This document shows, piece by piece, positions 312 to 38,568 of a stretch of DNA of 38,865 bases (position 1 is its first letter; each line of letters starts with the position of its first letter). A program made the translations under genes and the position numbers. The notes under the pieces were generated by a model. It was not told the DNA's origin. It saw nothing but the letters and a program-made list of their open reading frames with translations, and did no database searches. Source of the DNA: Segeticoccus rhizosphaerae (lineage in GTDB: Bacteria > Actinomycetota > Actinomycetes > Actinomycetales > Dermatophilaceae); the NCBI RefSeq assembly GCF_009192725.1, contig NZ_VOHR01000005.1, forward strand, positions 1-38,865, in the 5' to 3' direction.

Positions 312-947
312 GTGCCAGTCTTCAGGAAAGACGGTCGGAGCGTTCTGTTCATCCACGTTCCCAAGGCCGGTGGTTCGAGCATTGAGCGCATGTTCGGCGA
401 CGCTGGCTACACCGTCCACTACCGCGACCCACGCCTGGGCAAGGGATCGCTCAACCGCCTACGGCGCTGCTCGCCACAGCACATGCACGCGTCGATCCTC
501 CAGGAGGTCTTCCGGATCGACCTGTTCGACGTCGTCTTCATGGTGACCCGGCACCCGCTGACACGCTTCCGCTCCGAATACGGCTACGCGAGGCGCCACG
601 AGGACGTGGCGACCGACTCCGAGGCGGTCGAGCAGTGGGCCGAGAGGGCGTTCAGCGCCTACGCGAAGGACCCGTTCCACCTGGACAACCACCTCCGACC
701 GCAGTCGGACTTCTACCTGCCCGGGTGCACCGTCTATCGGCTCGAGGACGGCATGGAGGGCGTCATGGCCGACCTCGGGCGGCGCCTCGGCACCGACTTC
801 GGCGGCGAGGTTCCTCGCGTCCTGGAGCGCAAGAAGGAGAGCGGGGTCTCCAGCAGCGAGTTCACGGTGTCCGGACAGCTGCAGCGTCGGGTCGAGGCGT
901 TCTACAGCGAGGACTACGACCGCTTCGGCTACCAGCGCGGAGCCTGA
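312..947 (+). CDS. Sulfotransfer_2-family sulfotransferase
   Basis: A predicted PAPS-dependent sulfotransferase of 211 residues, cytosolic, with no signal peptide or membrane segment. The PAPS 5'-phosphosulfate loop is seen as HVPKAGGSS (residues 15-23), and the 3'-phosphate motif as TRHPLTRFRSEY (79-90, with R80 and S88). The frame is open upstream, but GTG 312 is chosen for two reasons: GAGGAGG lies 8 bases before it, and the paralogue at 37939-38568 begins with the same VFRKDGR residues. The two paralogues align without gaps over the first ~90 residues. It ends 8 bases before the convergent GT2 gene. The acceptor is unknown; context suggests a glycopolymer or glycolipid. Family assignment is firm, the specific substrate is inference. 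Confidence 0.85.
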   Translation: MPVFRKDGRSVLFIHVPKAGGSSIERMFGDAGYTVHYRDPRLGKGSLNRLRRCSPQHMHASILQEVFRIDLFDVVFMVTRHPLTRFRSEYGYARRHEDVATDSEAVEQWAERAFSAYAKDPFHLDNHLRPQSDFYLPGCTVYRLEDGMEGVMADLGRRLGTDFGGEVPRVLERKKESGVSSSEFTVSGQLQRRVEAFYSEDYDRFGYQRGA

Positions 948-955
948 GGCGAGGA

Positions 956-2908
956 TCAGTTGCGGCGCGCCCAACGCGCGCGAGCCGTCCGCAGGCCCCT
1001 GGCCGTTCTTCGTCTGGCCGAGATCGCTGTCGCCCGTAAAGCAGCACGTCCGCGGCCGGTGTGCACGGCCTCAGGCGTGCTCTGCGGCTCCGACGGCGGT
1101 CGAGGTGCCCGCACGATCCGCACTCCGTCCGCCCCTCGCCGCAGACCCGCCAACGGTCGGCTGGCCCGGATCCCGAACCGGGCCCGCACCGCGTGGACCT
1201 CGTCGTCCTCGGGCACCTCGACGAAGGCCAGCAGGGTCGCCCCGGCCGCATTGGCGATGACCCGGGCCGGGTGGGCATGGTCGTCGACCAGCACCTCGCC
1301 GGACAGGCTCGAGCGCGCACCGGCCGGGACGTGCACGTGGGGCAGCGGCCAGCGGATCGCGACCTGTGTCTCCTCGCGCGTCACCACCAGGTCCTTGCGG
1401 TCCGGCCGGGCGTGGTCCAGCAGCGCGCGTGCCTCCGACCTGGTGTCCACGGCGACCGTGCCACCCACGGTGGTGTAGAGCAGCGCCTGCCGTCCGTCCC
1501 CGATGGCGAGGTCGGAGACCGGCTTCGGGGCAGCGAGCCGTGCCTTGAGCGGCCAGCCGAGACCGAGGATGCGGATGACCAGATCCCAGATGCCGTCTTC
1601 GAGCGGCTCGCCGAAGGCCGCAGTCGCGGGGTCGAGCTCAGCCCGGAGGCTGAACGTCAGCCGATCCCCGTCGACGTCCAGTCCGCCCTCCGTGGGGAGG
1701 TTCCAGTCGACCAGGTCCTGTCGGCGGTGGACGATCAGGTCGGAGCGGTTCGCGGCCAGGGCATCGGTCAGGTCGGTCTCCTCCGGTGACAACCCCAGGT
1801 GGTCGGGCACGACCCGGTGCACCCGGCTGTCCACGCGTGCCACGCGCACCGGCCCCGAGGCTCCCTCGACATGCCCGCGGCAGACGAGCACCCACCGGTC
1901 GCCCTCCCAGGACACCCGGGTCTCGGTGACCGCGGGCCGGATGCCTCGATCGAGCTCGGCGAGCCCGGCCAGGGCCTCCCAGTCGCCACGGCGCAACAGG
2001 ACCGAGCGCATCCGGTCGGCCGGGGTGAGCGCGGCGTCGGTGCCGGGTGGGAAGTAGTGCAACAGCCCGCTGAACTTCTCGGCAAGGGTGCCGCGATAGG
2101 AGTCGCTGAAGCCGAGCAGCTGCGGGTTGAGCCGCTCCAGGATCCGGCTGCGGTACCACCGGGCCAGCAGGGTGTCCCGCTTGGTGCCGGGCGGCAGCTC
2201 ACGCACGATCGGCTGGAGAGACCGTTCGAAGGAATCCCAGTAGACCTGCACGTCATACCCGGCCTTGTGGCTGTTCCCGGTGCCGATGATCCACGTGTAG
2301 CAGGGGTACTCAGCGAAGATGGCGACCTTTTCGGTGCGGACGAAGGCCTGGGCATTGAAGTCGAAGTCCTCCAGCCGGATCCGCCCCTCGGGGAACCGGA
2401 TGTCGTGCTCGAGGAGGTACTCCCGGCGATAGAGCTTGTGCGGTGTGAGGCAGGCGACCACCTCCGCGTCCCAGTGGGTGACGCGCGGGACGTTCTCACG
2501 CCAGGTGGCCCACCCCGGCGTCTTCCACCCGTCGACGACCTCCTTCGGGATGACCACGTCTGCGTCCACGTCCCGAGCGAACGCGACCAGCCGCTCGAGG
2601 GCTTCCGGGAACATGGCGTCGTCGTGGTCCATGAAGAGCACGTAGTCACCCGACGCGCGCTGCACCCCGACGTTGCGGGGACGTCCCGGCCAACCCGACC
2701 CCGGGATCCGGTCGACGACCAGGTTGGGATAGACGCCGGCCAACCTCTGCAGCCGGTCGAAGGTGTCGTCGGTCGAGCCGTCGTCGATGACCACGACCTC
2801 GAACTCGGACGGGCCCAGTGACTGCCGCTGCAGCTCGGACAACGTCCACTCGATCCGTGCCCCGGTGTTGTAGGACGCCATGACCACACTGACTTCGACG
2901 GTCGACAT
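956..2908 (-). CDS. Family 2 glycosyltransferase with long beta-rich C-terminal region
   Basis: A 650-residue protein whose N-terminal ~220 residues are a GT-A family 2 domain: VSVVMASYN strand (6-14), DDGS (42-45), a GSGWPGRPRN segment (70-79) and DHDD as the metal/nucleotide-sugar motif (94-97). The remaining ~430 residues have no obvious second catalytic domain. They look beta-rich, broadly like the C-terminal modules of teichoic-acid glycosyltransferases such as TarS/TarP (inference), and end in an Arg/Ala-rich tail. No membrane segment is seen. Start ATG 2908 lies 7 bases after the TagF/GT4 fusion stop and has AGGTGG upstream, so the two are one operon. Likely role: adding a sugar to the wall polymer made by its neighbour. 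Donor and linkage are not known. Confidence 0.85.
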   Translation of the reverse strand: MSTVEVSVVMASYNTGARIEWTLSELQRQSLGPSEFEVVVIDDGSTDDTFDRLQRLAGVYPNLVVDRIPGSGWPGRPRNVGVQRASGDYVLFMDHDDAMFPEALERLVAFARDVDADVVIPKEVVDGWKTPGWATWRENVPRVTHWDAEVVACLTPHKLYRREYLLEHDIRFPEGRIRLEDFDFNAQAFVRTEKVAIFAEYPCYTWIIGTGNSHKAGYDVQVYWDSFERSLQPIVRELPPGTKRDTLLARWYRSRILERLNPQLLGFSDSYRGTLAEKFSGLLHYFPPGTDAALTPADRMRSVLLRRGDWEALAGLAELDRGIRPAVTETRVSWEGDRWVLVCRGHVEGASGPVRVARVDSRVHRVVPDHLGLSPEETDLTDALAANRSDLIVHRRQDLVDWNLPTEGGLDVDGDRLTFSLRAELDPATAAFGEPLEDGIWDLVIRILGLGWPLKARLAAPKPVSDLAIGDGRQALLYTTVGGTVAVDTRSEARALLDHARPDRKDLVVTREETQVAIRWPLPHVHVPAGARSSLSGEVLVDDHAHPARVIANAAGATLLAFVEVPEDDEVHAVRARFGIRASRPLAGLRRGADGVRIVRAPRPPSEPQSTPEAVHTGRGRAALRATAISARRRTARGLRTARARWARRN

Positions 2909-2915: not shown

Positions 2916-5567
2916 CTACCGCGTTGCGGACTGGTCGCCGGATGAGGTGGCAGGCTGGCCGCGATCGAGGTGGGCGGCCGGGACCCCGATGGCCCGGTAG
3001 AACTCTTCGACCGCCTCCTGGTTGTATGCCGTGGCGTCGAAGGCGCGCTTGGGCACCTCACCGGCCAGTGCACGTCGCATCCCGCCGGCCAGAGCCTCCA
3101 CCGACCGGTCCACCACCAGCCCGACGTTCTCGGGCAGGGCACCGCCGACCGAGGCGAAGTCTGTGGAGACGACAGGCAGCCCCAACACGAGCGCCTCGAG
3201 GATCACCATCGGTTGTCCCTCGTAATCGCTGGAGAGCACGAAGCAGTCCGACTCGGCCAGGATGGCGAAGGGATTGTTCTGGTGGCCGGCCAGGATGACG
3301 GCGCGGGCGAGGCCGAGCCCGAGGGCGAGCGACTGGAGCTGCTCCTGGAGAGGGCCGCTGCCCACGATGACCAGTCTGGTTGCGGGGTGCTCCTGGTGGA
3401 CGGCGTCGAACGCACGGATCAGTCGGGCATGGTTCTTCTCCGGGGAGAGCCGACCAACGGTCACGAACGTCGTGACACCGGGGGCTTCCGGCAGCACCGT
3501 ATCGACCGTGCGACGCCGCTGGACCTCGGCCTCTATGGCGTCCAGACCGTAGGAGCGCGCAAGCTCGGCGACCGCGGCCGGGAGCGGCGTGACCGGGATG
3601 GTGCCGCTGTCGTCGCGGTCCCTGGAGCCACCCTCCAAGCCGTGCGCCATGGTGGTGATGCGCCGATCGTTGATCGTGTTCCGCGCATACGTGTGCTTCT
3701 CCGGGTCATCCACCTCCGTGAGCTTCCTGGCATTGATCTCCATCAGTGCCTTGGACACCGAGACCAGGTGGTCGTAGCCGGCATACGTGGAGAAGACACC
3801 TCGGAGGTTGGCCTCGTGCGCGCGACGGCCGTCGACCTCTCGTTCCTGATCGGCCTTGAGGTCGTTGTGCAGCCAGATGGAGTGGCTCGCGGCCTCTCCC
3901 TGCAGCAGGAGGAAGGACCAGAAGGCTGCATAGCCGCTGAAGTCGATGATGTGGTCGAAGGATGCCTCCCCGAAGCAACGCCGCCACTCGTCGCGAAAGA
4001 GGGCTGTGACGCCGGGGACGTCCAGTCCGGGAGCGTTCATCCCCAACTCGAGAAGCCGGTTGCGGTCTCGCTTGTGTCGCTTGCTGGGCGTCATGCCACC
4101 CACCCTCGGGATGACCCTGACCCGAGGATGGATCGCGGCGGCATTCCTGGCCTGGTCGGCATTGCGGCTGTAGGTGTAGAAGGCCGTGACATCGAAGCGG
4201 TCGTGGTCGATGTTGTTGAGCAGGTTGATCGCAGACGTGGTGATGCCGTTCGAGCGCATCCCACCGAGATAGATCAGGATCCGTCGTCGTCCGTCGTGAC
4301 GGGCGGGCCGCACGTCATACCCTCGACGCTTTCCGCCGAAGATGATGTCGATGACCCGCTCCGTCGCGTGTCCGTCGTCCTTCGGCGCGAAGCGGCCGCG
4401 CACCGTGTCGTAGGCCTCGCGGTGTGAGACGAGCGGATCCTCCGGGTCCCCTGACCCGGCTGCGACGACGAGCCGCGCCAACTCGGGGATCCGCGACACC
4501 ACGGGCCCGGGGAGCTCGTCCGGCGCCAGGTAGAGCCCGCGGTAGCCCTCGTAGTCCTTGAGGTCCGGGGTGAAGAAGATGATGGGACGGCCGGTGGACA
4601 AGAAGTCGAAGAAGACGCTCGAGTAGTCGTTGACGAGCACGTCCGTCACCCCGAGCACCACATTGGTGGGTATCTCGTTCGGCACCAGGGTGTCCCTCAG
4701 GTCCGGTTGCTCGAGCGCGAAGCCATAGGCCTGCTGGTGCACCTTGAGCAGCACGATGTGGTCGGGCGGCAGCTGTGCCCGTAGGCGGCGCACGCGTTGC
4801 CCCAGGGCGGCGGCGTCATTGCTCGGTGAGTGGAATGACTGCCCCCGCCAGGTAGGCGCATACAGAACGACCTTCTGGCCCTGTTGGAGGGGGATCCCCG
4901 AAGCGCGCAGCCGGGCCAGGACGCGGAGTCGCTCCGACGCGTCCAGGTGCTGCCGGTCCACCCGCGGTGCGCCCTCGGTGACGATCTCGCCGCTGAAGAC
5001 GTTCGTGAGCCGGTAGGACGACTCGTACATCTGCTCGGCCATGAACGGGCTGGAGGCGAGCAGGTAGTCGGCGCTGAGGAGGTTGCGTATGACGTTGCGC
5101 GCGTTGGGGCCGCCCTCCGGCTCGTCATACCCCATGGTCTTGAGCGGCGTGCCGTGCCAGGTGTTCACGTAGACCTGACCCTCGCGCTTGCCGAAGTCCG
5201 GCGGGAAGGTCGCGTTGTTGACCAGGTACTTCGCGGTTGCCAGGGCACGGTGGTACGACGGCGAGCCCTGCTGGACGAAGCGGACCCTGGGGTGCCGCGC
5301 AAACTCCCTCATGGTCGCGCCGGCGGCCTCATCGTCACTGATGACCCAGATGTGGTGGAGATGGGCATACCGGCTGTCCTCGAGCAGACCACGGAAGATC
5401 GCCTCCGGGTTGCACAGCACCCCGTTTCCGGCGAACGACTCGTAGAGGACGTGCGTCTCCTCGATCGGCCGGGCGCGCCAGAAGAGCCGCCACTCGAACT
5501 GCCCGGTCTTCCGCAACTTGCGGCTCACCCTCCGCAGGCCTTTCGGGGCAGGGATCTTCGGGGTCAC
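2916..5567 (-). CDS. CDP-glycerol glycerophosphotransferase / GT4 glycosyltransferase fusion
   Basis: An 883-residue two-domain protein. Residues ~35-410 match the Glyphos_transf (TagF/TagB) family, which moves a polyol phosphate from a CDP-polyol to a growing teichoic acid. Seen: TWHGTPLK (137-144), YAPTWRG (236-242), LLKVHQQ with the second conserved histidine H277, and NDYSS (313-317). The last is normally TDYSS, so this copy has Asn for Thr. Residues ~428-860 are a GT4 domain: GGMRSNG near the start, GRLSPEKN (705-712) and an E-x7-E motif, E783/E791. Start GTG 5567 is preceded by GAGGAG and matches the start of the divergent paralogue. First gene of a two-gene minus operon. One protein may add a sugar and a polyol phosphate in turn (inference). 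Confidence 0.87.
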   Translation of the reverse strand: MTPKIPAPKGLRRVSRKLRKTGQFEWRLFWRARPIEETHVLYESFAGNGVLCNPEAIFRGLLEDSRYAHLHHIWVISDDEAAGATMREFARHPRVRFVQQGSPSYHRALATAKYLVNNATFPPDFGKREGQVYVNTWHGTPLKTMGYDEPEGGPNARNVIRNLLSADYLLASSPFMAEQMYESSYRLTNVFSGEIVTEGAPRVDRQHLDASERLRVLARLRASGIPLQQGQKVVLYAPTWRGQSFHSPSNDAAALGQRVRRLRAQLPPDHIVLLKVHQQAYGFALEQPDLRDTLVPNEIPTNVVLGVTDVLVNDYSSVFFDFLSTGRPIIFFTPDLKDYEGYRGLYLAPDELPGPVVSRIPELARLVVAAGSGDPEDPLVSHREAYDTVRGRFAPKDDGHATERVIDIIFGGKRRGYDVRPARHDGRRRILIYLGGMRSNGITTSAINLLNNIDHDRFDVTAFYTYSRNADQARNAAAIHPRVRVIPRVGGMTPSKRHKRDRNRLLELGMNAPGLDVPGVTALFRDEWRRCFGEASFDHIIDFSGYAAFWSFLLLQGEAASHSIWLHNDLKADQEREVDGRRAHEANLRGVFSTYAGYDHLVSVSKALMEINARKLTEVDDPEKHTYARNTINDRRITTMAHGLEGGSRDRDDSGTIPVTPLPAAVAELARSYGLDAIEAEVQRRRTVDTVLPEAPGVTTFVTVGRLSPEKNHARLIRAFDAVHQEHPATRLVIVGSGPLQEQLQSLALGLGLARAVILAGHQNNPFAILAESDCFVLSSDYEGQPMVILEALVLGLPVVSTDFASVGGALPENVGLVVDRSVEALAGGMRRALAGEVPKRAFDATAYNQEAVEEFYRAIGVPAAHLDRGQPATSSGDQSATR

Positions 5568-5619
5568 GCACTTGCTCCTCACCGGCTCGACTGCACCCAC
5601 TGTCGTGGGGCCATCACGG

Positions 5620-5781: not shown

Positions 5782-8367
5782 ATGCACATTCCGTCCCCGA
5801 CCCGGGTTCGCGTTCGGCGCTTTGTTCGAAAGGTGCGCAAGACGGGGACCTTCGAGTGGCAAAACTTCTGGCGCTCGCGACCGATCCAGGACGACACGGT
5901 CCTGTACGAGTCCTTCGCGGGCAACGGCATGCTGTGCAACCCGGAGGCGATCTTCCGGGGGCTACGGTCGGATCCGGGCTTCGCACACCTCAAGCACGTC
6001 TGGGTCCTGTCCGATCCTGAGCGCTACCGCTCGACCATGGACCGGTTTGCCCACGATGGCAGCGTCACCTTTGTCCGCCGTCACTCGGCCGCGTACTTCA
6101 GGGCTCTGGCGACCAGCAAGTACCTCATCAACAACGCCACGTTCCCCTGGGAGTTCTGCAAGCGGGAGGGCCAGGTCTACCTGAACACCTGGCACGGCAC
6201 GCCGCTCAAGACCATGGGTTACGACTCGCCCGAGGGGGGCCGGGGGGCGACCAACGTCGTGCGCAACTTCCTGATGGCCGATTTCCTGCTCTCCTCAGGT
6301 CCGTTCATGACCCAGCGGATGTATCAGGACGGCTTCCGCCTGACCAACCTCTTTCGCGGCCGCATCGTCACCGAAGGCTTTCCGCGGGTCGACGAGCAGT
6401 TCCTCACCGACCTGGAATCAGCCGGCCTCCGCCAGCGGCTGAGGGACTCCGGCCTCGCGGTCGGGGAGACGGACCGACTGGTCCTCTTCGTCCCCACCTG
6501 GCGCGGGACCTCCTTCCATGCCCCTACCAACGATGTGGCTCTCCTCGGGGAACAGGTTCGGGCCGTCAGGGCCGGACTACCGAAGGGACACCAGGTCCTG
6601 CTCAAGGTGCATCAACAGGTCTACGGCTTCGCCCTCGAGCACCCGGACCTCGCAGACATCCTGGTCCCCAACGAGATCCCCACCAACCAGGTCCTCGGCC
6701 TCACCGACGTCCTGGTGACCGACTACTCGAGCGCCTTCTTCGACTTCCTGGCAACCGGACGGCCCATCATCTTCTTCACCCCCGACCCGGGGCGGTTCGG
6801 GGAGCGCGGCATCTACCTGGACGCGGAGCAGCTCCCGGGACCGACAGCGCGGACCGTCCCGGAACTCATCCGCCTCATCCGGGCGGTCGGAACCCACGAG
6901 ACACCAGATCCCGAAGTCACCCACCGAGAGGTCTACGCCAACGCCCGACAGCGCTTCGCCGCCGGCGACGACGGGTCGAGCGCGAAGCGGGTGATCGATG
7001 TCGTGTTCAGGGGAAGCGCTCGACATGATGTCGCACCGCTGAGCCCCGACGGTCGGGAGTCGATCGTGATCTATCTCGGAGGACTGCGATCCAACGGCAT
7101 CACGGCATCGGCGCTCAACCTGCTGGCGAACATCGACCACGACCGCTTCGACGTCACGGCCTTCTATGCCGAACCCGACGACCTCGAGCGTCGACACAAC
7201 GAGGCGAGGATCGACCCGCGCGTGAGAGTCTTCCCGCGTGTCGGGGGCATCATCCCCAGCAAGAAGGACCGCTGGAACCGCCGACGCCTCCAGACGATCG
7301 GTGTCGATGCTCCACGGCTGGACCTCGACTCCATGAGAGCCGTCTTCGGCCAGGAGTGGCGGCGCTGTTTCGGCGAGGCGCGCTTCGACCATGTCATCGA
7401 CTACAGCGGCTACGCGTCGTACTGGGCCTTCCTGCTCCTCCAGGCGCCGGCCCGGTCGCGTTCCATCTGGCTGCACTCCGATCTGAGATCCGACCAGATG
7501 CGAGAAGTCGACGGTCATCGTCCCCACGAGGCCAACCTGCGTGCGGTCTTCTCGATGTATCCCGCGTTTGACCACCTGGTGTCCGTGTCCCCGGCACTGT
7601 GCCGGATGAACGCGACGAACTTGTCGGACGTCGTCGCGAAGGAGAAGCACACCTGGGCACGCAACAGCATCAACGTCGAGCAGATCCTGCGGCTCGGGCG
7701 GGGCGTGGATGCCGTCGACCACGGCCGGCCGCCTCCTGTCGTCCTGCCCGACACCCTGTCGGAGGCGATGTCGGCACTGGCACAGCGTTACGGGATCGAG
7801 GGCCTGGTGGCCGAGGTGGAGCGCCTGCAGATCGTCGATCGATTCGCGCGGAGGCATTCCGGGGCTTTCACCTTCGTCACCGTGGGGCGGCTCTCCCCGG
7901 AGAAGAATGACGACCGTCTGATCGAAGCCTTCGACCTGGTGCGCCAGGAACACCCTCTGGCCAGACTCGTGATCGTGGGAGGGGGCCCGATGCTCGACGA
8001 GCTCAAGACGCGAGTTGATCGTCTCGGCCTCTCCGAGGTCGTGACGATCGCCGGCCAGCAGGCCAACCCGTACGCCATCATGGCGCAGTGCGACTGCTTC
8101 GTGCTCTCGAGCGACTACGAGGGACATCCGATGGTCTTCCTCGAGGCCAGGGTTCTTGGCCTGCCCATCGTCAGCACGGACTTTCCCTCGATCAACGGCG
8201 CGCTGCCGGAAGGAGCCGGTCTGGTGGTCAGCCGAGACACACAAGCCCTGGCCGCGGGCATGCGCAGTGCGCTGGCCGGTGAGGTGCCCACCAAGCCCTT
8301 CGACGCCGCTGCCTACAACGCCGAAGTCATCGCGGAGTTCTACTCCGCCATCGGAGCCCGCTCATGA
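5782..8367 (+). CDS. CDP-glycerol glycerophosphotransferase / GT4 fusion (inverted paralogue)
   Basis: 861 residues with the same architecture as the gene at 2916-5567, to which it aligns without a gap over the first ~330 residues. TagF part: NNATFPWEF (118-126), TWHGTPLK (137-144), H277 in LLKVHQQ and a canonical TDYSS (313-317). GT4 part: from about residue 420, with GGLRSNG, GRLSPEKN and YEGHPMVFLE giving E-x7-E. No signal peptide or membrane segment; TagF-type enzymes work on the inner membrane face. The frame is open further upstream, but ATG 5782 has GGAGAGGG just before it and matches the paralogue's start. Its stop overlaps the next gene's start as ATGA, so the pair is translationally coupled. 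Predicted to build a polyol-phosphate/sugar polymer. Confidence 0.87.
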   Translation: MHIPSPTRVRVRRFVRKVRKTGTFEWQNFWRSRPIQDDTVLYESFAGNGMLCNPEAIFRGLRSDPGFAHLKHVWVLSDPERYRSTMDRFAHDGSVTFVRRHSAAYFRALATSKYLINNATFPWEFCKREGQVYLNTWHGTPLKTMGYDSPEGGRGATNVVRNFLMADFLLSSGPFMTQRMYQDGFRLTNLFRGRIVTEGFPRVDEQFLTDLESAGLRQRLRDSGLAVGETDRLVLFVPTWRGTSFHAPTNDVALLGEQVRAVRAGLPKGHQVLLKVHQQVYGFALEHPDLADILVPNEIPTNQVLGLTDVLVTDYSSAFFDFLATGRPIIFFTPDPGRFGERGIYLDAEQLPGPTARTVPELIRLIRAVGTHETPDPEVTHREVYANARQRFAAGDDGSSAKRVIDVVFRGSARHDVAPLSPDGRESIVIYLGGLRSNGITASALNLLANIDHDRFDVTAFYAEPDDLERRHNEARIDPRVRVFPRVGGIIPSKKDRWNRRRLQTIGVDAPRLDLDSMRAVFGQEWRRCFGEARFDHVIDYSGYASYWAFLLLQAPARSRSIWLHSDLRSDQMREVDGHRPHEANLRAVFSMYPAFDHLVSVSPALCRMNATNLSDVVAKEKHTWARNSINVEQILRLGRGVDAVDHGRPPPVVLPDTLSEAMSALAQRYGIEGLVAEVERLQIVDRFARRHSGAFTFVTVGRLSPEKNDDRLIEAFDLVRQEHPLARLVIVGGGPMLDELKTRVDRLGLSEVVTIAGQQANPYAIMAQCDCFVLSSDYEGHPMVFLEARVLGLPIVSTDFPSINGALPEGAGLVVSRDTQALAAGMRSALAGEVPTKPFDAAAYNAEVIAEFYSAIGARS

Positions 8368-10505
8368 CCGGGGCGGAGGCCGGTCCGGCGCAACCAGCGA
8401 AGGTGAAGGTGAGCGTCGTCGTGCCGGTCTTCAACCCCGGCGGGCACATCGACCCGCTGATCCGGTCGTTGGCAGAGCAGACGATGCCGGCCTCGGACTT
8501 CGAGACGATCTTCGTGGATGACGGGTCGACCGACGACACCCCGGGCAAGCTGGACCGGTTGGCCGCGTCCACACCGAATGTCAGGGTGATCCACACCCCG
8601 GGCTCCGGATGGTCGGGCAGACCACGCAACATCGGCATCGACGCGGCCGAGGGTGAGTACGTCCAGCTCGTCGACCACGACGACGAGTTGGGCACGGAGG
8701 CGTTGGAGCGGCTGTACGCCTATGCGGTGGCGAACGGGTCGGACGTCGTCGTGGGCAAGGAGGTGCGCAAGGGCGGCGCCTGGCACGTGGCGCCCCTCTT
8801 TGACAAGAACCGTCCTCGAGCCACCTTCGGGAAGGACCCGCTGGTGGGCATCATGACGCCACACAAGATGTTCCGGCGGGAGTTCCTGAACGAACACCAC
8901 ATCAGGTTCTTCGAAGGGCCGCGGCGAATGGAGGACCACCCCTTCGTCCTGGAGGCGTTCTTCTGCGCCGACGTGATCTCGGTGCTGTCGGACTACCCCG
9001 TCTACTACTGGCACCGGCGCGCAGACCGCGGCAACGCGGGAGCGCGGGCCTACGAGTGGGCCGACTTCTACGTCTACATGCGGGACACCCTCGACGTCAT
9101 CGAGCGCTACACCGAGCCGGGGGATCTCCGGGACCGGCTGCTGGCCTTCTACTACGACAGCAAGGGGCTGGGCTGGCTGACCCGGTCGGTGCCGCACCGG
9201 ACGCCCGCGGAGTTGCGCAAGCACTTCGATGCGCTGCGGGAGCTGGCGCAGGAGCGCTTCCCGCCCTCGGTGGACATCCACCTGCACGGCATGGCCCGGG
9301 CGCGTTCCCAGCTCCTTCGGGCCGGTGACTTCGAGGGCCTGGTCGCGCTGGGAGCCGTCGAGTCGGCCATCGGGGTCCACCAGGAGCTGGTCGAGATCGA
9401 GGTCGTGGACGACACGTTTCGGGTGCGAGCCATCACAGGCCTGTGCTACGGAGACGGCTCACCGTTGCAGTTCCAGGTCGACGGTGGGCGGACCTGGTGG
9501 CGGCCTCCGATCGAGCTCGGCTCGCCGGTGTCCCACGACGTCCTGGACTTCAGCGCGGTCCACGGCCGGCGGCGGATCGAGCTCGCCCTGCGCAATCGCC
9601 GTTCTCACGACGTGCACCTGATCAGCGGGGACGCAGAGCAGATGACGGAGGAAGCACCCGGCATCCTTCCCTTCACCTTCGACACGGTCTTCGAGTTCGA
9701 CCCCGAGACCGTTGCGGGCGGGCAACCGTTGGAGCCCGCCGTCTACGACGTCTTCGTGCGGGTGACCTGCTCACCGTGGCGGAGGCAGGCACCGCTGCAG
9801 AGCCTCCCCGGGGCGCCCCAGCGGAGGCCCTTGAGCAGAGGGTCGCGGGCGACCCACAGCGTCGTGCCTTTCACCACGCCGAGCGGGCGGGTCGCGCTCG
9901 ACGTCGACCACCAGACCCTCATCGACCAGGAGGCGGAGATGAACGACCGTGAGGCGACCTCGACCGGCGGCAACGGGCCCGGGCCCAAGGACCAGGCTGT
10001 CGTGGTGGAGGTGACCTCCAGCTATGCGCGGCGCTCTGCTGACCGGGTGCGTCTCGTGCTGCACCTGCCCGGGGCGGGGACGAGCGATGGACAACGGGCC
10101 CGGGTGCGTCTTCAGCGCGCGCAGAGTGCCGTGACGGGTGACGCCACGGTCACCGACGCCATAGGCGGGATCCGCGTCGAGGCGGGGCTGCCGGCCGACC
10201 GTCTGCCGTCCGGTACCTGGAGCATCGCCGTCAGCCTCGGCCAGGGTGAACGCTTCCAGCGAGTGCAGGCACGTCTGCTCACGAGCACGACCCGGCCCGT
10301 AGCGCTCCTGACGGGGTCCGCGCCCCGCGGATCGGCCTCGGGAGGAAGCGGGCGCGTCGCGCAACCACCCAAGGCTCCCGGTCACCCCGATTGGATGCGT
10401 CGTGCCGGTCGGCAGGTCGATCGGGCGCTCGGTGTGCTGCCGCCGGCACAGGCCGCACGCTGCCGCAAGGCACTTCGCGCGACGGCGCGCCGAATGCTCG
10501 GCTGA
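8364..10505 (+). CDS. Family 2 glycosyltransferase with long beta-rich C-terminal region (paralogue)
   Basis: 713 residues. The GT-A catalytic domain occupies roughly 13-230: VKVSVVVPVFN, DDGS (52-55), GSGWSGRPRN (80-89) and DHDD (104-107). A linker follows, then ~380 residues that look like repeated beta modules, and a basic C-terminus. The GSGW-GRPRN and DHDD context is shared with the gene at 956-2908, so the two are paralogues in mirror-image positions. ATG 8364 overlaps the TagF/GT4 stop by four bases. It is predicted to decorate the polymer made by the upstream fusion; two paralogues suggest two related but different acceptors or donors (inference). Confidence 0.85.
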   Translation: MTGAEAGPAQPAKVKVSVVVPVFNPGGHIDPLIRSLAEQTMPASDFETIFVDDGSTDDTPGKLDRLAASTPNVRVIHTPGSGWSGRPRNIGIDAAEGEYVQLVDHDDELGTEALERLYAYAVANGSDVVVGKEVRKGGAWHVAPLFDKNRPRATFGKDPLVGIMTPHKMFRREFLNEHHIRFFEGPRRMEDHPFVLEAFFCADVISVLSDYPVYYWHRRADRGNAGARAYEWADFYVYMRDTLDVIERYTEPGDLRDRLLAFYYDSKGLGWLTRSVPHRTPAELRKHFDALRELAQERFPPSVDIHLHGMARARSQLLRAGDFEGLVALGAVESAIGVHQELVEIEVVDDTFRVRAITGLCYGDGSPLQFQVDGGRTWWRPPIELGSPVSHDVLDFSAVHGRRRIELALRNRRSHDVHLISGDAEQMTEEAPGILPFTFDTVFEFDPETVAGGQPLEPAVYDVFVRVTCSPWRRQAPLQSLPGAPQRRPLSRGSRATHSVVPFTTPSGRVALDVDHQTLIDQEAEMNDREATSTGGNGPGPKDQAVVVEVTSSYARRSADRVRLVLHLPGAGTSDGQRARVRLQRAQSAVTGDATVTDAIGGIRVEAGLPADRLPSGTWSIAVSLGQGERFQRVQARLLTSTTRPVALLTGSAPRGSASGGSGRVAQPPKAPGHPDWMRRAGRQVDRALGVLPPAQAARCRKALRATARRMLG

Positions 10506-26349: not shown

Positions 26350-26368
26350 GCCCTGGCTCCCCGTCGTC

Positions 26369-30456: not shown

Positions 30457-31368
30457 TTAGAAGTAGCCCTCTCGCTTGCGGTCTTCCATTGCGGCCTCGG
30501 AGAAGCGGTCGTCGCCGCGGGTGGCACCCCGCTCGGTGACCGTGGCGACCGCGATCTCGTCGATGATCTCGTCGACGGTCGCGGCCTCCGACTTCACGCA
30601 GCCGGTCAGGGTCATGTCACCGACGGTGCGGAAGCGCACCATCTCCTTGGTGATCGACTCACCCTTCTTGGGCTGCACCGCGTCGGAGGCGGACAGCAAC
30701 ATGCCGTCGCGGGCGATGACCTCGCGCTCGTGGGCGAAGTAGATGGACGGCACCTCGATGCCTTCGCGGCCGATGTAGTGCCAGATGTCGAGCTCGGTCC
30801 AGTTGGACAGCGGGAAGACCCGCATGTGCTCGCCCTCGTGCAGCTTGCCGTTGTAGAGGTTCCACAGCTCGGGGCGCTGGTTCTTGGGGTCCCACTGGCC
30901 GAAGTCGTCGCGGTGGGAGTAGACGCGCTCCTTCGCCCGGGCCTTCTCCTCGTCGCGGCGTCCGCCACCGAACGCGGCCGTGAAGCCTTCACGCTCGATC
31001 GCGTCCAGCAGGGTGCCGATCTGCAGGCGGTTGCGGCTCGTCTTGCCGTCGTCGACGACGACACCGTTCGCGATGGCCTCGTCGACCGAGGCGATGATCA
31101 TCCGCACGCCGAGGCGGTCGACCCACCGGTCACGGGTCTCGATGACCTCGGGGAAGTCGAAGCCGGTGTCGACCTGCATCACCGGGAAGGGGACGCGCGC
31201 CGGGTAGAAGGCCTTCTCCGCCAGGCGCAGCATGACGATCGAGTCCTTGCCGCCGGAAAAGAGCAGCACCGGCTTGCGGAACTCCGCCGCCACCTCGCGG
31301 AAGATGTGGATCGACTCCGACTCGAGCTCGTCGAGCTGGCTCATCCGGTAGTCAGTGTGCACAGCCAT
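30457..31368 (-). CDS. cysD: Sulfate adenylyltransferase subunit 2 (CysD)
   Basis: 303 residues. This is the catalytic ATP pyrophosphatase-type subunit of the CysDN sulfurylase. Seen: LLFSGGKDS (36-43, PP-loop), MQVDTGFDFPE, GGGRRDEEKARAKER and DPKNQRPELWN, all highly conserved in CysD. Start ATG 31368 has GAGGAGGG upstream at a somewhat long spacing. It lies 46 bases after the permease and three bases before cysN. Works in the cytosol with CysN to make APS, which CysC then phosphorylates to PAPS. Length is typical for the family. Confidence 0.96.
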   Translation of the reverse strand: MAVHTDYRMSQLDELESESIHIFREVAAEFRKPVLLFSGGKDSIVMLRLAEKAFYPARVPFPVMQVDTGFDFPEVIETRDRWVDRLGVRMIIASVDEAIANGVVVDDGKTSRNRLQIGTLLDAIEREGFTAAFGGGRRDEEKARAKERVYSHRDDFGQWDPKNQRPELWNLYNGKLHEGEHMRVFPLSNWTELDIWHYIGREGIEVPSIYFAHEREVIARDGMLLSASDAVQPKKGESITKEMVRFRTVGDMTLTGCVKSEAATVDEIIDEIAVATVTERGATRGDDRFSEAAMEDRKREGYF

Positions 31369-31414: not shown

Positions 31415-32383
31415 TCAGGTCCGCTCCGACGGACGAGTCGGGGAAGTCGGCTCGTCGTGGGACGGGGCCGCGACCGGGAGCGACTCGAAGGGTGCGAGAC
31501 CGTGCAGCTTGCGAACGCCGCCCCAGATGACCGGACCGAGGATCAACATGCCGGCACCGATCATGCCCACCCACTCGGGCGGGACCTGCAGCATCGAGAG
31601 TCCGGTCAGGGACAGCACCATCACGATGCCTCGCCGGATCACCGACTGGGAGACCCAGCTGGCCAGCTTGGCGCCGAGGAAGGTGCCGGGCATTCCACCG
31701 ACGATCAACGGGATGAGCACCGCCCAGTCGACCCCCGAGACGATGACGTGGCTGATCGCCGCCGACACGACCAACGGGATGGCCTGCACCAGATCCGTCC
31801 CGACCAGGCGCCGCGGCGACATGCGTGGATAGAGCAGCACGAGCGCCACCATGATGAGTGATCCCGAGCCGACCGAGGTCAGGCCCACCAGCAGCCCGCC
31901 GGTGGCACCGATCAGGAAGGTGGGGAGCGGCTTGACCGGAGACTCCGGCCGGCCGGTGTGCTCGCCGCCCTCGTGCAGGTTCTTCACCATCTGCAGGTAC
32001 ATCCGCAGGGCGTAGGTCGATGCCGTGATCAGCAGGGTGACGCCGATGGCGAGCTTGATGAACTGCTCCTGTGCCTCGCCGGCCGCCACCGCCTTGATGA
32101 TGAACGCGCCGGCGAAGGCTGTCGGCACCGAGCCGGCGATCAGCCAGGCGGCCAGCTTCAGATGAGGTGAGCCACCCTTCCAGTGCACCGCGGCCCCGAC
32201 GCTCTTGTTGAACGCGGCCGAGACGAGGTCGTTGGCCACGGCGGCCGAGGGTGGCACGCCGAGCAGGATCAGCGCCGGGGTCATCAGGGCACCACCGCCC
32301 ATCCCGGTCAGCCCGATGACGATGCCGACCAGGAAGCTGACCACCAGCAGCGAGAGCGCGGTCGTGGTCAGCAGGTCACTCAT
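31415..32383 (-). CDS. TauE/SafE (TSUP) family permease
   Basis: 322 residues with about eight to nine membrane helices in two repeats. The first repeat begins FLVGIVIGLTGMGGGALMTP (18-37), the second GATGGLLVGLTSVGSGSLI; the paired glycine-rich G-x-T-GMGGG/SVGSGS motifs define this family. TSUP proteins move sulfite, sulfonates or related sulfur anions. Its place between cysC and cysD suggests sulfate uptake or export of a sulfur anion (inference). ATG 32383 overlaps the cysC stop as ATGA. The C-terminal ~20 residues are a Ser/Thr/Pro-rich cytosolic tail. Confidence 0.88.
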   Translation of the reverse strand: MSDLLTTTALSLLVVSFLVGIVIGLTGMGGGALMTPALILLGVPPSAAVANDLVSAAFNKSVGAAVHWKGGSPHLKLAAWLIAGSVPTAFAGAFIIKAVAAGEAQEQFIKLAIGVTLLITASTYALRMYLQMVKNLHEGGEHTGRPESPVKPLPTFLIGATGGLLVGLTSVGSGSLIMVALVLLYPRMSPRRLVGTDLVQAIPLVVSAAISHVIVSGVDWAVLIPLIVGGMPGTFLGAKLASWVSQSVIRRGIVMVLSLTGLSMLQVPPEWVGMIGAGMLILGPVIWGGVRKLHGLAPFESLPVAAPSHDEPTSPTRPSERT

Positions 32384-33684
32384 CGCTCACCCCGGCCCGC
32401 CGGGCTCCCGGTCGGGTCGGCGTCGAGGTCGACCAGACCGTCTTCAGCCAGCAGCCCGAGCACGTCATCGACCACCTCGTCGACCGTCCGCCCGGCGGTG
32501 TCGACCCGCAGGTCGGCATCGTCGGGCTCCTCGTAGGGCGAGGAGATGCCCGTGAAATCCGGTATGTCGCCCCGCCGCGCCTTCGCGTAGAGGCCCTTGC
32601 GGTCCCGCCGCTCGCACTCCTGCAGTGGCGTGGCGACGTGGACGAGGACGAAGGCGCCACCGGTCGCATCGACCATCCGACGCACGGCGGCCCGGGTGGA
32701 GGCGAACGGGGCGATCGGGCTGCAGATGGCCGCGCCTCCGTGGCGGGCGATCTCCGCGGCGACCCACCCGATCCGGCGGATGTTGGTCTCGCGGTCCTCC
32801 CGCGAGAACGTCAGGCCCGCCGACAGGTTGCGCCGCACGACGTCACCATCGAGCAGGGTCACGGTGCGGTGGCCCTCGGCGACGAGCCGGTCGCGCACGC
32901 CCCGGGCCACGGTCGACTTGCCGCTGCCGGACAGCCCGGTGAAGAACAGCACCATCCCGCGGGCGGTTCCGGTCGGGCGGTCGGACCGCACCACCGCCTC
33001 GACGGCGGCCGGCAGGGGTCCCTCGCCGACTGTCTCGAGGACCTCGGCCGGGGCGTAGGCCCGGACGACGCGGTCCTGCACCGCGCCGTCGGCCCCCGCC
33101 CGGTCACGCCGGGCGAGTGGCACGGCGACGACGTGCGCGTTTCCGATCAGGCCGGCGGCCGCGAGGCTGGCCCGGATCAGGCCGGTGGCGGACAGACCCT
33201 CGGGCCGCCCCTCGCCGACCAGCGCGAGCAGCAGCACCGGCCGTCCGGCTGCGGCCGCGGTGATGTGGTCGATGTCCTGCTCGGTCAACGGCCGCGCGCT
33301 GGGCACCGTGATGGTCTCGGGCGGGAGCCCCGTCCGGAGCTGCTCAGGGGCGAGGTAGAGGTGGTCGAAGACCCGCCCCTCACGACGGGTGAGTCCCCGC
33401 ACCGCTCCGACGAGGCCGACGGTGGCTGCGTCCTCCTCGAAGGTGTCCTGGATCTCGAGGGAGGCGAGCGGCACCCCTTCGGGATCGACCAGCTCGACGG
33501 TCGTGCCGGGCGACAGCCTCGGGGCCAGGTCGCGGGACGTGGTGAGGGTCACGCCCGTCTCCGGTGTCCCGAATCCGCGAAGCGGGGCGAGGGCTCCGGT
33601 CATCAGCAGCTCGAGGTCGTCGAGCTCGCCGGCGGACGGCGCCAGCTGGACAGTGTTGCCGTCGGCCGTGTTCACGCCGGGCAT
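32380..33684 (-). CDS. cysC: Adenylyl-sulfate kinase with degenerate ATP-sulfurylase-like N-terminus
   Basis: 434 residues. The C-terminal ~190 residues are an APS kinase: P-loop GLSGSGKS (250-257), DGD (279-281), RRNLSAGLTFSREDR and CSPIAPF, where the Ser corresponds to the loop normally reading SPYRADR. It turns APS into PAPS. Residues 18-125 match the PUA-like N-terminal domain of ATP sulfurylase (GELDDLELLMTGALAPLRGF). Residues ~126-235 lie where the sulfurylase catalytic domain would be, but its QxRNP and GRDHAG motifs are absent, so that half is probably inactive or regulatory. ATG 33684 is preferred; GTG 33711 directly after the rmlD stop is an alternative. Sulfurylase activity comes from CysDN. 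Confidence 0.9.
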   Translation of the reverse strand: MPGVNTADGNTVQLAPSAGELDDLELLMTGALAPLRGFGTPETGVTLTTSRDLAPRLSPGTTVELVDPEGVPLASLEIQDTFEEDAATVGLVGAVRGLTRREGRVFDHLYLAPEQLRTGLPPETITVPSARPLTEQDIDHITAAAAGRPVLLLALVGEGRPEGLSATGLIRASLAAAGLIGNAHVVAVPLARRDRAGADGAVQDRVVRAYAPAEVLETVGEGPLPAAVEAVVRSDRPTGTARGMVLFFTGLSGSGKSTVARGVRDRLVAEGHRTVTLLDGDVVRRNLSAGLTFSREDRETNIRRIGWVAAEIARHGGAAICSPIAPFASTRAAVRRMVDATGGAFVLVHVATPLQECERRDRKGLYAKARRGDIPDFTGISSPYEEPDDADLRVDTAGRTVDEVVDDVLGLLAEDGLVDLDADPTGSPAGRGER

Positions 33685-33711: not shown

Positions 33712-34559
33712 TCACGTGGGCACGACGCGCGGGAGCGCTTCCGTCAGCGCGTCGCGCCAGTCGCGGACGGGCGCCCGACCGACGCGTTGCCAGGCGTCGT
33801 GGCCCAGCACGCTGTATGCCGGTCGCGGCGCCGGACGCGGGAAGGCGGCGGTGGTGGTGGGGCGGACCCGGTCGGGGTCGAGACCGAGGCCGGTGAAGAT
33901 CGCGCGGGTGAACTCGAACCACGTGGTCGATCCGGAGGACGTCGCGTGGTAGGCGCCGGGGGGTGCCTCCGCCTCGACGAGCCGCAGGATCGCGTCCGCC
34001 ACGTCGACGGTCCAGGTGGGTTGCCCTTCCTGGTCGTCCACGACGTCGAGGGTGTCATGATCGCCGGCGAGCCGGGCCATCGTCTTGACGAAGTTGCCAC
34101 CGTGCTCGCCGTAGAGCCAGGCGGTGCGGACCACCAGTGAGTCGGGGCACAGCGCCCGCACGGCCCACTCCCCGGCGGCCTTCGTCCGTCCGTAGGCGGA
34201 GCGTGGAGCCAGAGGCGCGTCCTCGGCATACGGGCTGGTGGCGTCTCCGGCGAAGACGTAGTCGGTGGAGACCTGCACGAGCCTGGCTCCGGCGCGCTCG
34301 CACGCGCGGGCGAGGTTGCCGGCCCCGATCGCGTTGATGGCGAAGGCGTCCGGTTCGTGGCTCTCCGCGTCGTCCACCGCGGTCCAGGCGGCGGTGTTGA
34401 CCACGACGTCGTGCGAGGACACCTCAGCCAGGCAGGCGTCCGGGTCGGTGACGTCGAGGTCGAGGCGGGCGGCCGCGGTGACATCGTGCCCGGCGGACCG
34501 GGCGGCAGCCACGACGTCCTGCCCGAGCATGCCGCCGGCACCGGTGACCAGCCAGCTCA

Positions 34560-34560
<1 letters not shown>
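33712..34560 (-). CDS. rmlD: dTDP-4-dehydrorhamnose reductase (RmlD)
   Basis: 282 residues of the extended short-chain dehydrogenase family. RmlD reduces dTDP-4-keto-L-rhamnose to dTDP-L-rhamnose with NAD(P)H. Seen: nucleotide loop [10 protein letters not shown] (6-15), [12 protein letters not shown] (55-66), STDYVFAG (98-105) and catalytic Y123/K127 in YGRTK. Start ATG 34560 shares one base with the rmlB stop (TGATG). The longer open frame to 34689 only overlaps rmlB. The stop lies 27 bases before the preferred cysC start, so rhamnose and PAPS genes are in one transcription unit. Stand-alone RmlD, not fused to RmlC as in some actinobacteria. Confidence 0.94.
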
Positions 34561-37096
<2,536 letters not shown>

Positions 37097-37134
37097 ACCT
37101 CCTGGGGAATCCCACATCGCGGGCCAGTCCTTGT

Positions 37135-37140
37135 TAGCGT
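37135..37140 (+). promoter_or_regulatory. Leaderless -10 box (TAGCGT) for the phosphodiesterase gene
   Basis: TAGCGT ends seven bases before ATG 37148, the same geometry as at rmlA and rmlB. It overlaps the alternative GTG 37139, which argues for the ATG. Confidence 0.45.
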
Positions 37141-37147
37141 GAGGGTG

Positions 37148-37912
37148 ATGAGCATCTTCGGCGGACGGCCGACCATCCTCGGACATCGCGGGCTCGGTGC
37201 TGGCGTGGTCGACGGCCACGCGGAAAACACACCCGACTCGTTCCGCGGGGCCGTGAAGGAGGGGTTGCGCTGGATCGAGACCGATGTGCGCCGCACCCTC
37301 GACAACGCGGTGGTGGTCGGGCACAACCCGAGCCTGCACGACGGGTCCTTCCTCGAACAGCTCACCCTGGCGCAGGCGCGCGAGCTCGGGGTGCTGACCA
37401 TCGAGGAGCTGCTCGAGGAGCTGCCGGACAACATCGGCGTCAACCTCGACGTCAAGAGCTGCCTCGAGGACGCCCTGCGGCCACCCGCCCAGACCACGGC
37501 CGCGATGGTCGCGCCGTTGGCCAGGCAGATCTCGCGGGAGCGGCCGTTCCTGCTCTCGTCCTTCGACGCCTCGGTCGTCCTCCTGGTGCGCGAACGCGCG
37601 CCCGAGGTGCCCTTGGGCCTTCTGACGTGGTTCACCTTCCCGCTGCGCAAGGCCATCGCGGCGGCGGCGCAGCTCCACGTCGAGGTGGTCAGCGCCCAGG
37701 TGGGGTCATTCCTGCGCCGGAGCGTGGAACCGAAGCTGCCGCAGGTCTCCAACGACTACGCCGTGGACGTGGCGCACCGTGCCGGGCTCGAGGTCATGTG
37801 CTGGTGCCCCGACCTCGAGGACGCGCGAGACCTCTTCGAGGCGGGGGTCGACGGGGTCGTGGTCAACGACGTGCCGCGCGCACTCGAGGGTCTGCGTGGG
37901 GTCGCTGACTGA
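37148..37912 (+). CDS. Glycerophosphodiester phosphodiesterase
   Basis: 254 residues of the GDPD TIM-barrel family, which cleaves glycerophosphodiesters to glycerol-3-phosphate and an alcohol. Seen: LGHRGLG (11-17) with the first catalytic His, ENTPDSF (26-32), the metal-binding pair E44/D46 in IETDV, H59 as the second catalytic His, and NLDVKS near 100. Two small departures: the residue after H59 is Asn instead of the usual Asp, and the EIK glutamate is Asp, a change I believe common in actinobacteria. No signal peptide, so it acts in the cytosol. In this setting it could recycle glycerol phosphate from polymer or lipid breakdown (inference). GTG 37139 is an alternative start. Confidence 0.87.
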   Translation: MSIFGGRPTILGHRGLGAGVVDGHAENTPDSFRGAVKEGLRWIETDVRRTLDNAVVVGHNPSLHDGSFLEQLTLAQARELGVLTIEELLEELPDNIGVNLDVKSCLEDALRPPAQTTAAMVAPLARQISRERPFLLSSFDASVVLLVRERAPEVPLGLLTWFTFPLRKAIAAAAQLHVEVVSAQVGSFLRRSVEPKLPQVSNDYAVDVAHRAGLEVMCWCPDLEDARDLFEAGVDGVVVNDVPRALEGLRGVAD

Positions 37913-37938
37913 GTCCACCCCGGGACGCTGCTCGGCGG

Positions 37939-38568
37939 TCAGGCGGTATAGCCGAACCGCTCGTAGTCGGCCCGGTAGAACTCCTGGATCTGCGTCAGCA
38001 GCGACGGCGTGATCTCGACGTCCTTGCTGGAGTAACCGGCGCTGTGCGCGCCCTCTCTCACCCGTGGGACGTCGCGCGTCAACCCGAGGTCGTGGGTCTG
38101 GTCGAGCTTTTCGACGATGGCGCTGAGGCCGTCCTCGAAGTAGTGCACCTCGGCCTCCTGCAGGTAGAAGTCCGCCTGGGGCCGAATGTGGTTGTCGTGC
38201 AGGTGCGGGTCGACCTTGCATTTCGCGAAGTTCTGCTGTGCCCACGCCTCCACGCGTGCCCCGTCCACCCCGACCTCCCTGCGGCGGGTGCGCCACAGGT
38301 ACTCCGACTGCAACCGGCGCACGGGGTCGCGCACCATCATGAACACGAGGTCGAAACGGTCGATCCGAAACAACATCCGCAGCAGCTCCGCCTCCATGTG
38401 CTGCGGTGTGCTCCGGCGGAGGTGGTTCATGTTGTCCCGACCCATCCGGCCGTCGAGGTAGGTCGTGACGTAGCCACTGTTCTTGAAGACCCGCTCGATG
38501 GTGGAACCGCCGGTCTTCGGCACGTGCACGAACAGGATCTTTCGTCCGTCCTTGCGGAACACGGGCAT
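37939..38568 (-). CDS. Sulfotransfer_2-family sulfotransferase (paralogue of the left-end copy)
   Basis: 209 residues. PAPS loop HVPKTGGST (15-23) and 3'-phosphate motif VRDPVRRLQSEY (79-90, R80 and S88). It aligns without gaps to the protein at 312-947 over the first ~90 residues and shares its FRKDGR start, LRR-x-x-PQHM block, DNH-x-RPQ-x-DFYL block and RFGY end. Start ATG 38568 is supported by the paralogue; the ribosome site (AGAAAG) is weak. Cytosolic. Convergent with the phosphodiesterase gene (26-base gap). With its paralogue it brackets the whole polymer cluster in opposite orientation. Substrate unknown. Confidence 0.86.
   Translation of the reverse strand: MPVFRKDGRKILFVHVPKTGGSTIERVFKNSGYVTTYLDGRMGRDNMNHLRRSTPQHMEAELLRMLFRIDRFDLVFMMVRDPVRRLQSEYLWRTRRREVGVDGARVEAWAQQNFAKCKVDPHLHDNHIRPQADFYLQEAEVHYFEDGLSAIVEKLDQTHDLGLTRDVPRVREGAHSAGYSSKDVEITPSLLTQIQEFYRADYERFGYTA

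Follow-up and report, generated by a model that had tools for sequence, protein, structure and literature searches.

A candidate locus for a sulfated, teichoic acid-like surface glycopolymer in an actinobacterium with no detected sulfate reduction genes

What does an actinobacterium make when six sulfotransferase genes, four TagF-type polyol-phosphate transferase domains, and a complete pathway for the sulfate donor 3'-phosphoadenosine 5'-phosphosulfate (PAPS) lie side by side? The question is raised by a contig of Segeticoccus rhizosphaerae (NZ_VOHR01000005.1, here C445), which a preliminary description had read as a candidate locus for a sulfated teichoic acid-like glycopolymer. The window analyzed here is this contig in full (38,865 bases), from a 4.44-Mb genome of 761 contigs that is 95.1% complete, and the locus may be cut off at both ends because the window is the complete contig. 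The host family includes Janibacter corallicola and Humibacillus. The genes on which the preliminary description relied, namely, six sulfotransferases, four TagF domains, cysD, cysN, cysC, and deoxythymidine diphosphate (dTDP)-sugar genes, are all confirmed in the window (Table 1). Their sequences and surroundings make it likely that the host produces a sulfated surface glycopolymer. With somewhat less assurance, we favor a PAPS supply dedicated to sulfation and used by cytosolic sulfotransferases on surface glycopolymers, probably including one made by TagF; the odds that sulfate is carried by the TagF polymer itself appear to be about even.

The PAPS pathway encoded in the window is complete, as had been claimed: both subunits of ATP sulfurylase (CysN, 561 bits; CysD, 442 bits) exceed their NCBIfam cut-offs, and CysC matches the adenosine 5'-phosphosulfate (APS) kinase family at 191 bits. 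An APS kinase search of the whole host genome returned one strong match (194 bits), which lies in the window, and the next match scored 20.7 bits. The preliminary description had also seen no sulfate reduction genes, and this holds genome-wide. The sulfite reductase model NIR_SIR found no match in the host genome and was positive in 11 of 14 control genomes; the sole PAPS_reduct match in the host was the CysD of the window, with no CysH (the wider family was positive in all 14 controls), although neither absence is final at the completeness of this assembly. The host genome thus combines cysD, cysN, cysC, and sulfotransferases and yielded neither of the two enzymes, CysH and sulfite reductase, by which assimilatory sulfate reduction is recognized. 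Because no PAPS reductase or sulfite reductase was detected and the only strong APS kinase lies in the window, the cysDNC genes most likely feed sulfation. A TauE permease gene adjoins cysC in 13 of the 16 cysC loci read, namely, the window and the relatives G008, G016, G025, G026, G030, G037, G074, G089, G117, G172, G225, and G398; it was not detected beside cysC in G046, G055, and G073. The CysC protein of the window is extended at its N terminus by about 230 residues, which match PUA_2 only weakly and are possibly a degenerate ATP sulfurylase-like part; long CysC proteins also occur in several relatives. One relative, G008 (2.4 Mb, 99% complete), encodes cysDNC, TauE, and sulfotransferases (G008:C5:592000-611999) with no NIR_SIR or TagF match in its genome and is, after the host, another instance in which sulfate is activated and no sulfite reductase was detected.

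The six sulfotransferases also withstand scrutiny. Five exceed the Pfam cut-offs (22 bits for Sulfotransfer_2 and 27 bits for Sulfotransfer_3), and all six carry a 5'-PSB-like loop and a 3'-PB-like R...S motif, these being the names of the motifs for the PAPS-binding sites of sulfotransferases. The protein encoded at 14336 falls short of its cut-off (23.8 bits) but is 45% identical to its paralog at 22059; the two form a separate group, and a profile of both gave no third member in the loci read. Over the gene at 11499 to 12326 (plus strand), a long minus-strand open reading frame (11334 to 12539) was set aside as spurious. The nearest PDB entry to the 24411 protein is a heparan sulfate 3-O-sulfotransferase. 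For the 37939 protein, phmmer against the PDB gave chance matches only, and its structure model (mean predicted local distance difference test [pLDDT] score, 78) had no Foldseek match with an E value below 0.001, the best rows nonetheless being sulfotransferases. VIA-align 2 aligned this model to the Alicyclobacillus sulfotransferase 3rnl (Z of 10.7; 3.9 A over 180 residues) and to 1t8t (Z of 10.4; 4.2 A over 183 residues). The top 17 rows consist of 3rnl and heparan-sulfate-type sulfotransferases, and the best 50 (Z of 10.7 to 7.5) are all sulfotransferases or sulfotransferase domains, which points to a sulfotransferase fold for the one protein of the six that was modeled usefully. The model of the 14336 protein, built from a two-row alignment, was discarded (mean pLDDT, 44.8). 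Since none of the six proteins has a predicted membrane segment, the expected site of sulfation is the cytosol, the compartment that contains PAPS. Two Pfam models found 11 sulfotransferase genes in the entire genome, six on C445 and five on a second contig, C223, and their confinement to these two contigs indicates that the co-location in the window is not due to chance.

Sulfotransferases and APS kinases also occur together among relatives. In a presence survey of 78 genomes, the host included, 21 have sulfotransferases over the cut-off, and a strong APS kinase is present in 19 of these compared to 10 of the other 57 (p = 4e-9 in a Fisher test that, like those below, ignores relatedness among the genomes); leaving the host out gives 18 of 20 versus 10 of 57. 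The 30 strong APS kinase genes (29 genomes) fall into distinct settings: for 10, a sulfotransferase gene is 0.8 to 10.4 kb away; for nine, a sulfite reductase gene is about 2 kb away; none has both nearby; and 11, some of them on fragmented contigs, have neither. Counted by genome, 10 have the sulfotransferase setting, nine the sulfite reductase setting, and 10 neither. Distances were taken between gene starts; each sulfotransferase gene contributed about one row and each genome one sulfite reductase place, and second NIR_SIR matches, mostly of nitrite reductase length, were excluded.

Which polymer might receive the sulfate? All four TagF (PF04464) domains exceed the cut-off, with the catalytic motif WHG in all four and the second-histidine pattern and TDYSS each in three (patterns as written for the scan), so that a TagF-type polymerase domain with catalytic histidine motifs, a mark of wall teichoic acid synthesis, is present. 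Four LytR_cpsA_psr (LCP ligase) genes lie in the genome, none of them in the window, and could provide for wall attachment. A TagD-like gene on contig C197 scores 132 bits (NCBIfam cut-off, 165.4) and matches the PDB TagD entry 1coz at 4.2e-37. Cytidine diphosphate (CDP)-ribitol supply of the TarI type was considered and found no support: no TarI-like gene was seen among the three IspD-model matches in the genome, which are two contig-end pieces (C16 and C299) and a protein read as GlmU-like. The TagF domains, the TarS-linker glycosyltransferases, and the TagD-like gene elsewhere in the genome support describing the predicted product as teichoic acid-like, and the sugars implied by the locus are rhamnose and a 4-amino-4,6-dideoxyhexose. 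The locus resembles wall teichoic acid synthesis (TagF, TagD, and TarS) in its four TagF domains, its two proteins joining a family 2 glycosyltransferase (GT2) to a TarS linker, and the genomic TagD-like gene; it differs in that TagF is fused to a family 4 glycosyltransferase (GT4) or a GT2 and in that six sulfotransferases and the PAPS pathway share the locus. TagF polymers are completed in the cytosol before export, and for this reason a TagF polymer would be a reachable substrate for cytosolic enzymes that use PAPS.

Gene neighborhoods link one sulfotransferase subfamily to TagF. Of 396 genomes of the order, 14, representing four genera and three families, matched a profile of this subfamily, which was made from Sulfotransfer_2-type (ST2) proteins of both window ends and three relatives. 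A TagF domain, counted at >100 bits to our own TagF-domain profile, lies within about 10 kb of ST2 in 10 of the 14 (G000, G037, G055, G089, G117, G159, G172, G226, G237, and G417), and cysD, cysN, and cysC lie within the same distance in eight (G000, G055, G074, G089, G117, G172, G225, and G398). The query included proteins found near TagF; after removal of the three genomes that supplied it, TagF neighbors ST2 in 7 of 11 and cysDNC in 6 of 11. Weaker TagF hits, among them the partial ones in G117, G225, and G398 (31 to 81 bits), were left out of the count, and some ST2 stretches end at contig ends (G037 and G225). The ST2 genes at G226:C10 and G237:C10 have no TagF neighbor, and in G073 neither TagF nor cysDNC lies near ST2, the two occurring together elsewhere in the genome. 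Within 20 kb, G089 holds TagF-GT4, two ST2 genes, two more sulfotransferase-profile matches, cysN, cysD, cysC, and TauE. In Humibacter albus DSM 18994, an ST2 gene with the cofactor loop (L084:9150-9878) stands directly upstream of TagF-GT4, with no cysDNC in the stretch read.

Several results weigh against the TagF polymer as the sulfated product. When TagF-GT4 was the starting point, a six-frame search found a sulfotransferase within about 10 kb in just 3 of 79 loci, which derive from the best 80 of 280 relatives, are mostly from Microbacteriaceae, and include several short contigs; the survey may omit records close to the host genome. The three are from Janibacter corallicola, Humibacter albus, and Isoptericola halotolerans, the last of which also holds cysD, cysN, and cysC. 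The sulfotransferase profiles were trained on the window and its relatives (42 proteins, with one GT2-fused and one overlong protein excluded and three places without a called gene), and distant sulfotransferases near TagF may escape them; locus L105, with no called genes, was covered by the six-frame search only. The 78-genome survey shows no association of TagF with APS kinase (p = 0.67, or 0.43 for strong TagF only) and only a moderate one with sulfotransferases (12 of 21 genomes versus 16 of 57; p = 0.018). The TagF set behind the p values of 0.67 and 0.018 takes in short weak matches, and a repeat restricted to matches of >90 bits, which drops these, gave 11 of 21 versus 11 of 57 (p = 0.006). 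The 11 ST2 genomes independent of the query comprise two genera only. The TagD-like gene remains under its NCBIfam cut-off, and the same model matches 12 of 14 controls, two of them over the cut-off. None of the stretches read (L043-L050) around the Sulfotransfer_3 clusters near cysC in G025, G026, G030, G008, and G046 contains TagF, and TagF matches are absent genome-wide from G025, G030, and G008. Finally, the sulfotransferase locus on C223 could be the main PAPS consumer. The sulfated wall polymer of the preliminary description is well supported as a deduction about a surface glycopolymer, given PAPS without a detected reductive sink, six sulfotransferases, and the APS kinase link, and less certain where the TagF polymer is concerned, given the 3 of 79 loci, the lack of association with APS kinase, and the second locus. 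The conserved neighborhoods for which it proposed to look are seen for the ST2 subfamily and are rare from the TagF-GT4 side.

These observations lend substance to an alternative, unlikely on balance, in which sulfate goes to a Wzx/Wzy-type polysaccharide, such as that of C223, or to its lipid-linked units, and the TagF polymer is left unsulfated. In the stretches read (L031:10779-17854 and L032:3502-10293), C223 encodes five sulfotransferases, one of them GT2 fused, together with TauE, a polysaccharide deacetylase, one TagF, GT2 genes, and Wzz-like and Wzy_C-like matches that are both below cut-off; the genome search found no strong APS kinase there. Similarly, the cluster of G030 places six sulfotransferases with Wzx, Wzy, Wzz, TauE, cysN, and cysC; in G025 and G030, cysC and cysN were seen and the stretch or contig stops before cysD, which in G030 is beyond the contig end or absent. 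Against a purely Wzx/Wzy-type product, the six sulfotransferases of the window sit among its own TagF genes, most ST2 genomes show the same proximity, and no Pfam match to Wzx, Wzy, or Wzz was found among the window genes scanned, where two polytopic proteins are without a family.

It is improbable that the sulfotransferases instead modify small molecules, glycolipids, or proteins. Sulfotransfer_3 members are diverse, and the proteins at 14336 (1.3e-4) and 11499 (0.011) are nearest in the PDB to 4gox, the sulfotransferase domain of an olefin/polyketide synthase. However, no polyketide or peptide synthase match was found among the window genes scanned, the neighbors are polymer-making enzymes, and for the 24411 and 37939 proteins the resemblance is to heparan-sulfate-type enzymes. 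That cysDNC serves ordinary sulfate assimilation and lies in this locus by chance is very improbable: cysDN and cysC serve assimilation in many bacteria, and reductive genes could be absent from an assembly of 95% completeness, but neither CysH nor sulfite reductase was found in the host, the 99% complete G008 likewise pairs cysDNC and sulfotransferases with no NIR_SIR match, and sulfotransferase-adjacent APS kinases are never near sulfite reductase.

Returning to sulfation of surface glycopolymers, the most specific scheme that we can draw is a tentative one, with somewhat less than an even prospect: a surface polymer with a TagF-made glycerol-phosphate backbone and sulfate esters, finished by cytosolic ST2 enzymes, for which alone the PAPS pathway would be kept. 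In the broader reading that we favor, the TauE/SafE permease would import sulfate, which, going by family knowledge, CysDN would convert to APS and CysC to PAPS. With neither PAPS reductase nor sulfite reductase seen in the genome, PAPS would then go to sulfation, and the cysDNC genes of the window probably supply the Wzy-like locus on C223 as well as C445. The polymer would be assembled by the TagF-type polyol-phosphate transferases fused to glycosyltransferases, from CDP-glycerol provided by the TagD-like enzyme encoded elsewhere in the genome, and TarS-like GT2 enzymes would use dTDP-rhamnose and a dTDP-amino-deoxysugar to decorate it. The six soluble sulfotransferases, some of which are relatives of heparan-sulfate-type enzymes, would act on the cytosolic side and esterify glycan intermediates or the polymer with sulfate, and export would follow. 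What the sequences show is the genes with their motifs and co-location, the undetected reductive genes, and the recurrence among relatives; the sugar or polyol acceptor, the linkage, the route of export, and wall attachment are our inferences. If the scheme is true, a Gram-positive wall polymer would carry negative charge from both phosphate and sulfate, and sulfate activation would be uncoupled from sulfur assimilation in several actinobacteria. The gene signature, ST2 near TagF and cysDNC-TauE, lends itself to testing in culturable strains with this combination, such as Isoptericola halotolerans KCTC 19046 and Janibacter corallicola NBRC 107790.

How much of this has precedent? The preliminary description knew of no well-described actinobacterial system that matched, and the TagF combination does appear to be new; sulfation without reduction and sulfotransferases in a polysaccharide cluster have each been predicted in print, in two published and unproven precedents. 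Pontimonas salivibrio CL-TW6 is described as having sulfate activation and sulfotransferases with no PAPS reductase or sulfite reductase detected, and its authors propose cell wall modification as the presumable use of the activated sulfate (PMC6106888). The same account infers a polyrhamnose polymer and reports TagB and TagD as missing. The host shares with it sulfate activation without detected reduction and differs in having TagF domains and a TagD-like gene. In Actinoplanes missouriensis, two sulfotransferase genes of the wps-1 cluster are needed for normal sporangia, and the authors suggest, on other than chemical grounds, that the cluster makes a sulfated polysaccharide (PMC13390465). 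Like the window, wps-1 is an actinobacterial polysaccharide cluster with sulfotransferases (two, of different families) and a methyltransferase; unlike the window, it is Wzx/Wzy dependent, and the main text of the report mentions neither PAPS nor cysC. C223 is alike in kind to wps-1, more so than the window is. Sulfated polymers have been studied together with their biosynthesis genes in marine Cobetia (PMC11766843), in Vibrio (PMC11641403), and as cyanobacterial synechan (PMC8205485); as described there, these are capsular polysaccharides or an exopolysaccharide from other phyla and not actinobacterial polymers of the TagF type. Titles and abstract openings in the open-license literature yielded no chemical description of an actinobacterial teichoic acid or wall polymer that bears sulfate.

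The 29 called genes cover 95% of C445. Besides the six sulfotransferases, cysN, cysD, cysC, and the TauE permease, they comprise four TagF-domain proteins (TagF-GT4 three times and GT2-TagF once), two GT2-TarS-linker proteins, a GT4, a further GT2 whose C-terminal part has two hydrophobic segments, a DegT aminotransferase, rmlA, rmlB, rmlC, rmlD, a LicD-like protein, two methyltransferases, a GDPD protein, and two polytopic membrane proteins.

Table 1. Genes called in the 38,865-base window and the evidence for their assignment
Feature	Coordinates	Strand	Evidence
Sulfotransferase, Sulfotransfer_2 type (ST2_a)	312..947	+	Pfam 44.6 bits; motifs VPKAGGSS, RHPLTRFRS; 45% identity to 37939 protein
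GT2 glycosyltransferase with TarS linker	956..2908	-	Glycos_transf_2 + TarS_linker; PDB 8bz4 'Glycosyltransferase' 8e-76
TagF domain fused to GT4, copy a	2916..5600	-	Glyphos_transf 251.8 bits + Glycos_transf_1
TagF domain fused to GT4, copy b	5833..8367	+	Glyphos_transf 226.5 bits
GT2 glycosyltransferase with TarS linker	8403..10505	+	Pfam
Methyltransferase (Methyltransf_24)	10527..11282	-	Pfam
Sulfotransferase, Sulfotransfer_3 type	11499..12326	+	47 bits
LicD-like protein with F5/8C-like N-terminal part	12320..13594	-	LicD 22.5 bits (cut-off 22.6); DDDLD in translation
S-Adenosylmethionine (SAM) methyltransferase	13617..14270	-	Pfam
Sulfotransferase-like protein	14336..15430	-	Sulfotransfer_3 23.8 bits (< cut-off 27); PDB 4gox 1.3e-4; 45% identity to 22059 protein
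TagF domain fused to GT4, copy c	15423..17855	-	Glyphos_transf 259.7 bits
GT2 fused to TagF	17998..20820	+	Glyphos_transf 309.8 bits; PDB TagF 3l7i 1.1e-72
GT4 glycosyltransferase	20850..21971	+	Pfam
Sulfotransferase, Sulfotransfer_3 type	22059..23288	+	36.8 bits
GT2 glycosyltransferase with two C-terminal hydrophobic segments	23392..24402	+	Pfam; hydropathy
Sulfotransferase, heparan-sulfate 3-O-sulfotransferase-like	24411..25166	+	Sulfotransfer_3 30.5 bits; PDB 1t8t 7.5e-13
Sugar aminotransferase, dTDP-4-amino-4,6-dideoxygalactose transaminase type	25159..26349	+	NCBIfam NF008687 433.5 bits, cut-off 375
Polytopic membrane protein, candidate flippase	26389..27624	-	9 hydrophobic segments; no Pfam match
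Polytopic membrane protein, candidate GT-C	27668..29194	-	7 hydrophobic segments; no Pfam match
CysN, ATP sulfurylase large subunit	29203..30453	-	TIGR02034 561 bits, cut-off 336
CysD, ATP sulfurylase small subunit	30457..31368	-	TIGR02039 442 bits, cut-off 397
TauE/SafE permease, candidate sulfate carrier	31415..32383	-	PF01925 161.7 bits
CysC, APS kinase with extra N-terminal part	32380..33684	-	APS_kinase 191 bits; PDB 3cr8 7.6e-66 over residues 232-420
RmlD	33712..34560	-	Pfam
RmlB	34560..35555	-	Pfam
RmlA	35625..36500	+	NTP_transferase 234.5 bits
RmlC	36500..37096	+	dTDP_sugar_isom 180.8 bits
Glycerophosphodiester phosphodiesterase	37139..37912	+	GDPD 85.3 bits
Sulfotransferase, Sulfotransfer_2 type (ST2_f)	37939..38568	-	55.3 bits; structure model aligns to sulfotransferases

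The earlier gene list is right, with two points to add. The dTDP-sugar genes are present as listed, but rmlA and rmlC had been omitted, and with these beside rmlB and rmlD the rmlABCD set is complete. The LicD-like protein shows DDDLD in its translation and scores just under the cut-off, and the F5/8C-like carbohydrate-binding part at the N terminus of that protein is weak, with matches below cut-off. Positions 2 to 280 encode the C-terminal end of a protein broken by the contig end, with no Pfam match. ARAGORN placed a tRNA-Gly (acc) at 33898-33989 on the minus strand, within rmlD, which is probably spurious. The GT2 and the two polytopic proteins at 23392-29194 could be a GtrB/flippase/GT-C-type set for extracellular glycosylation.

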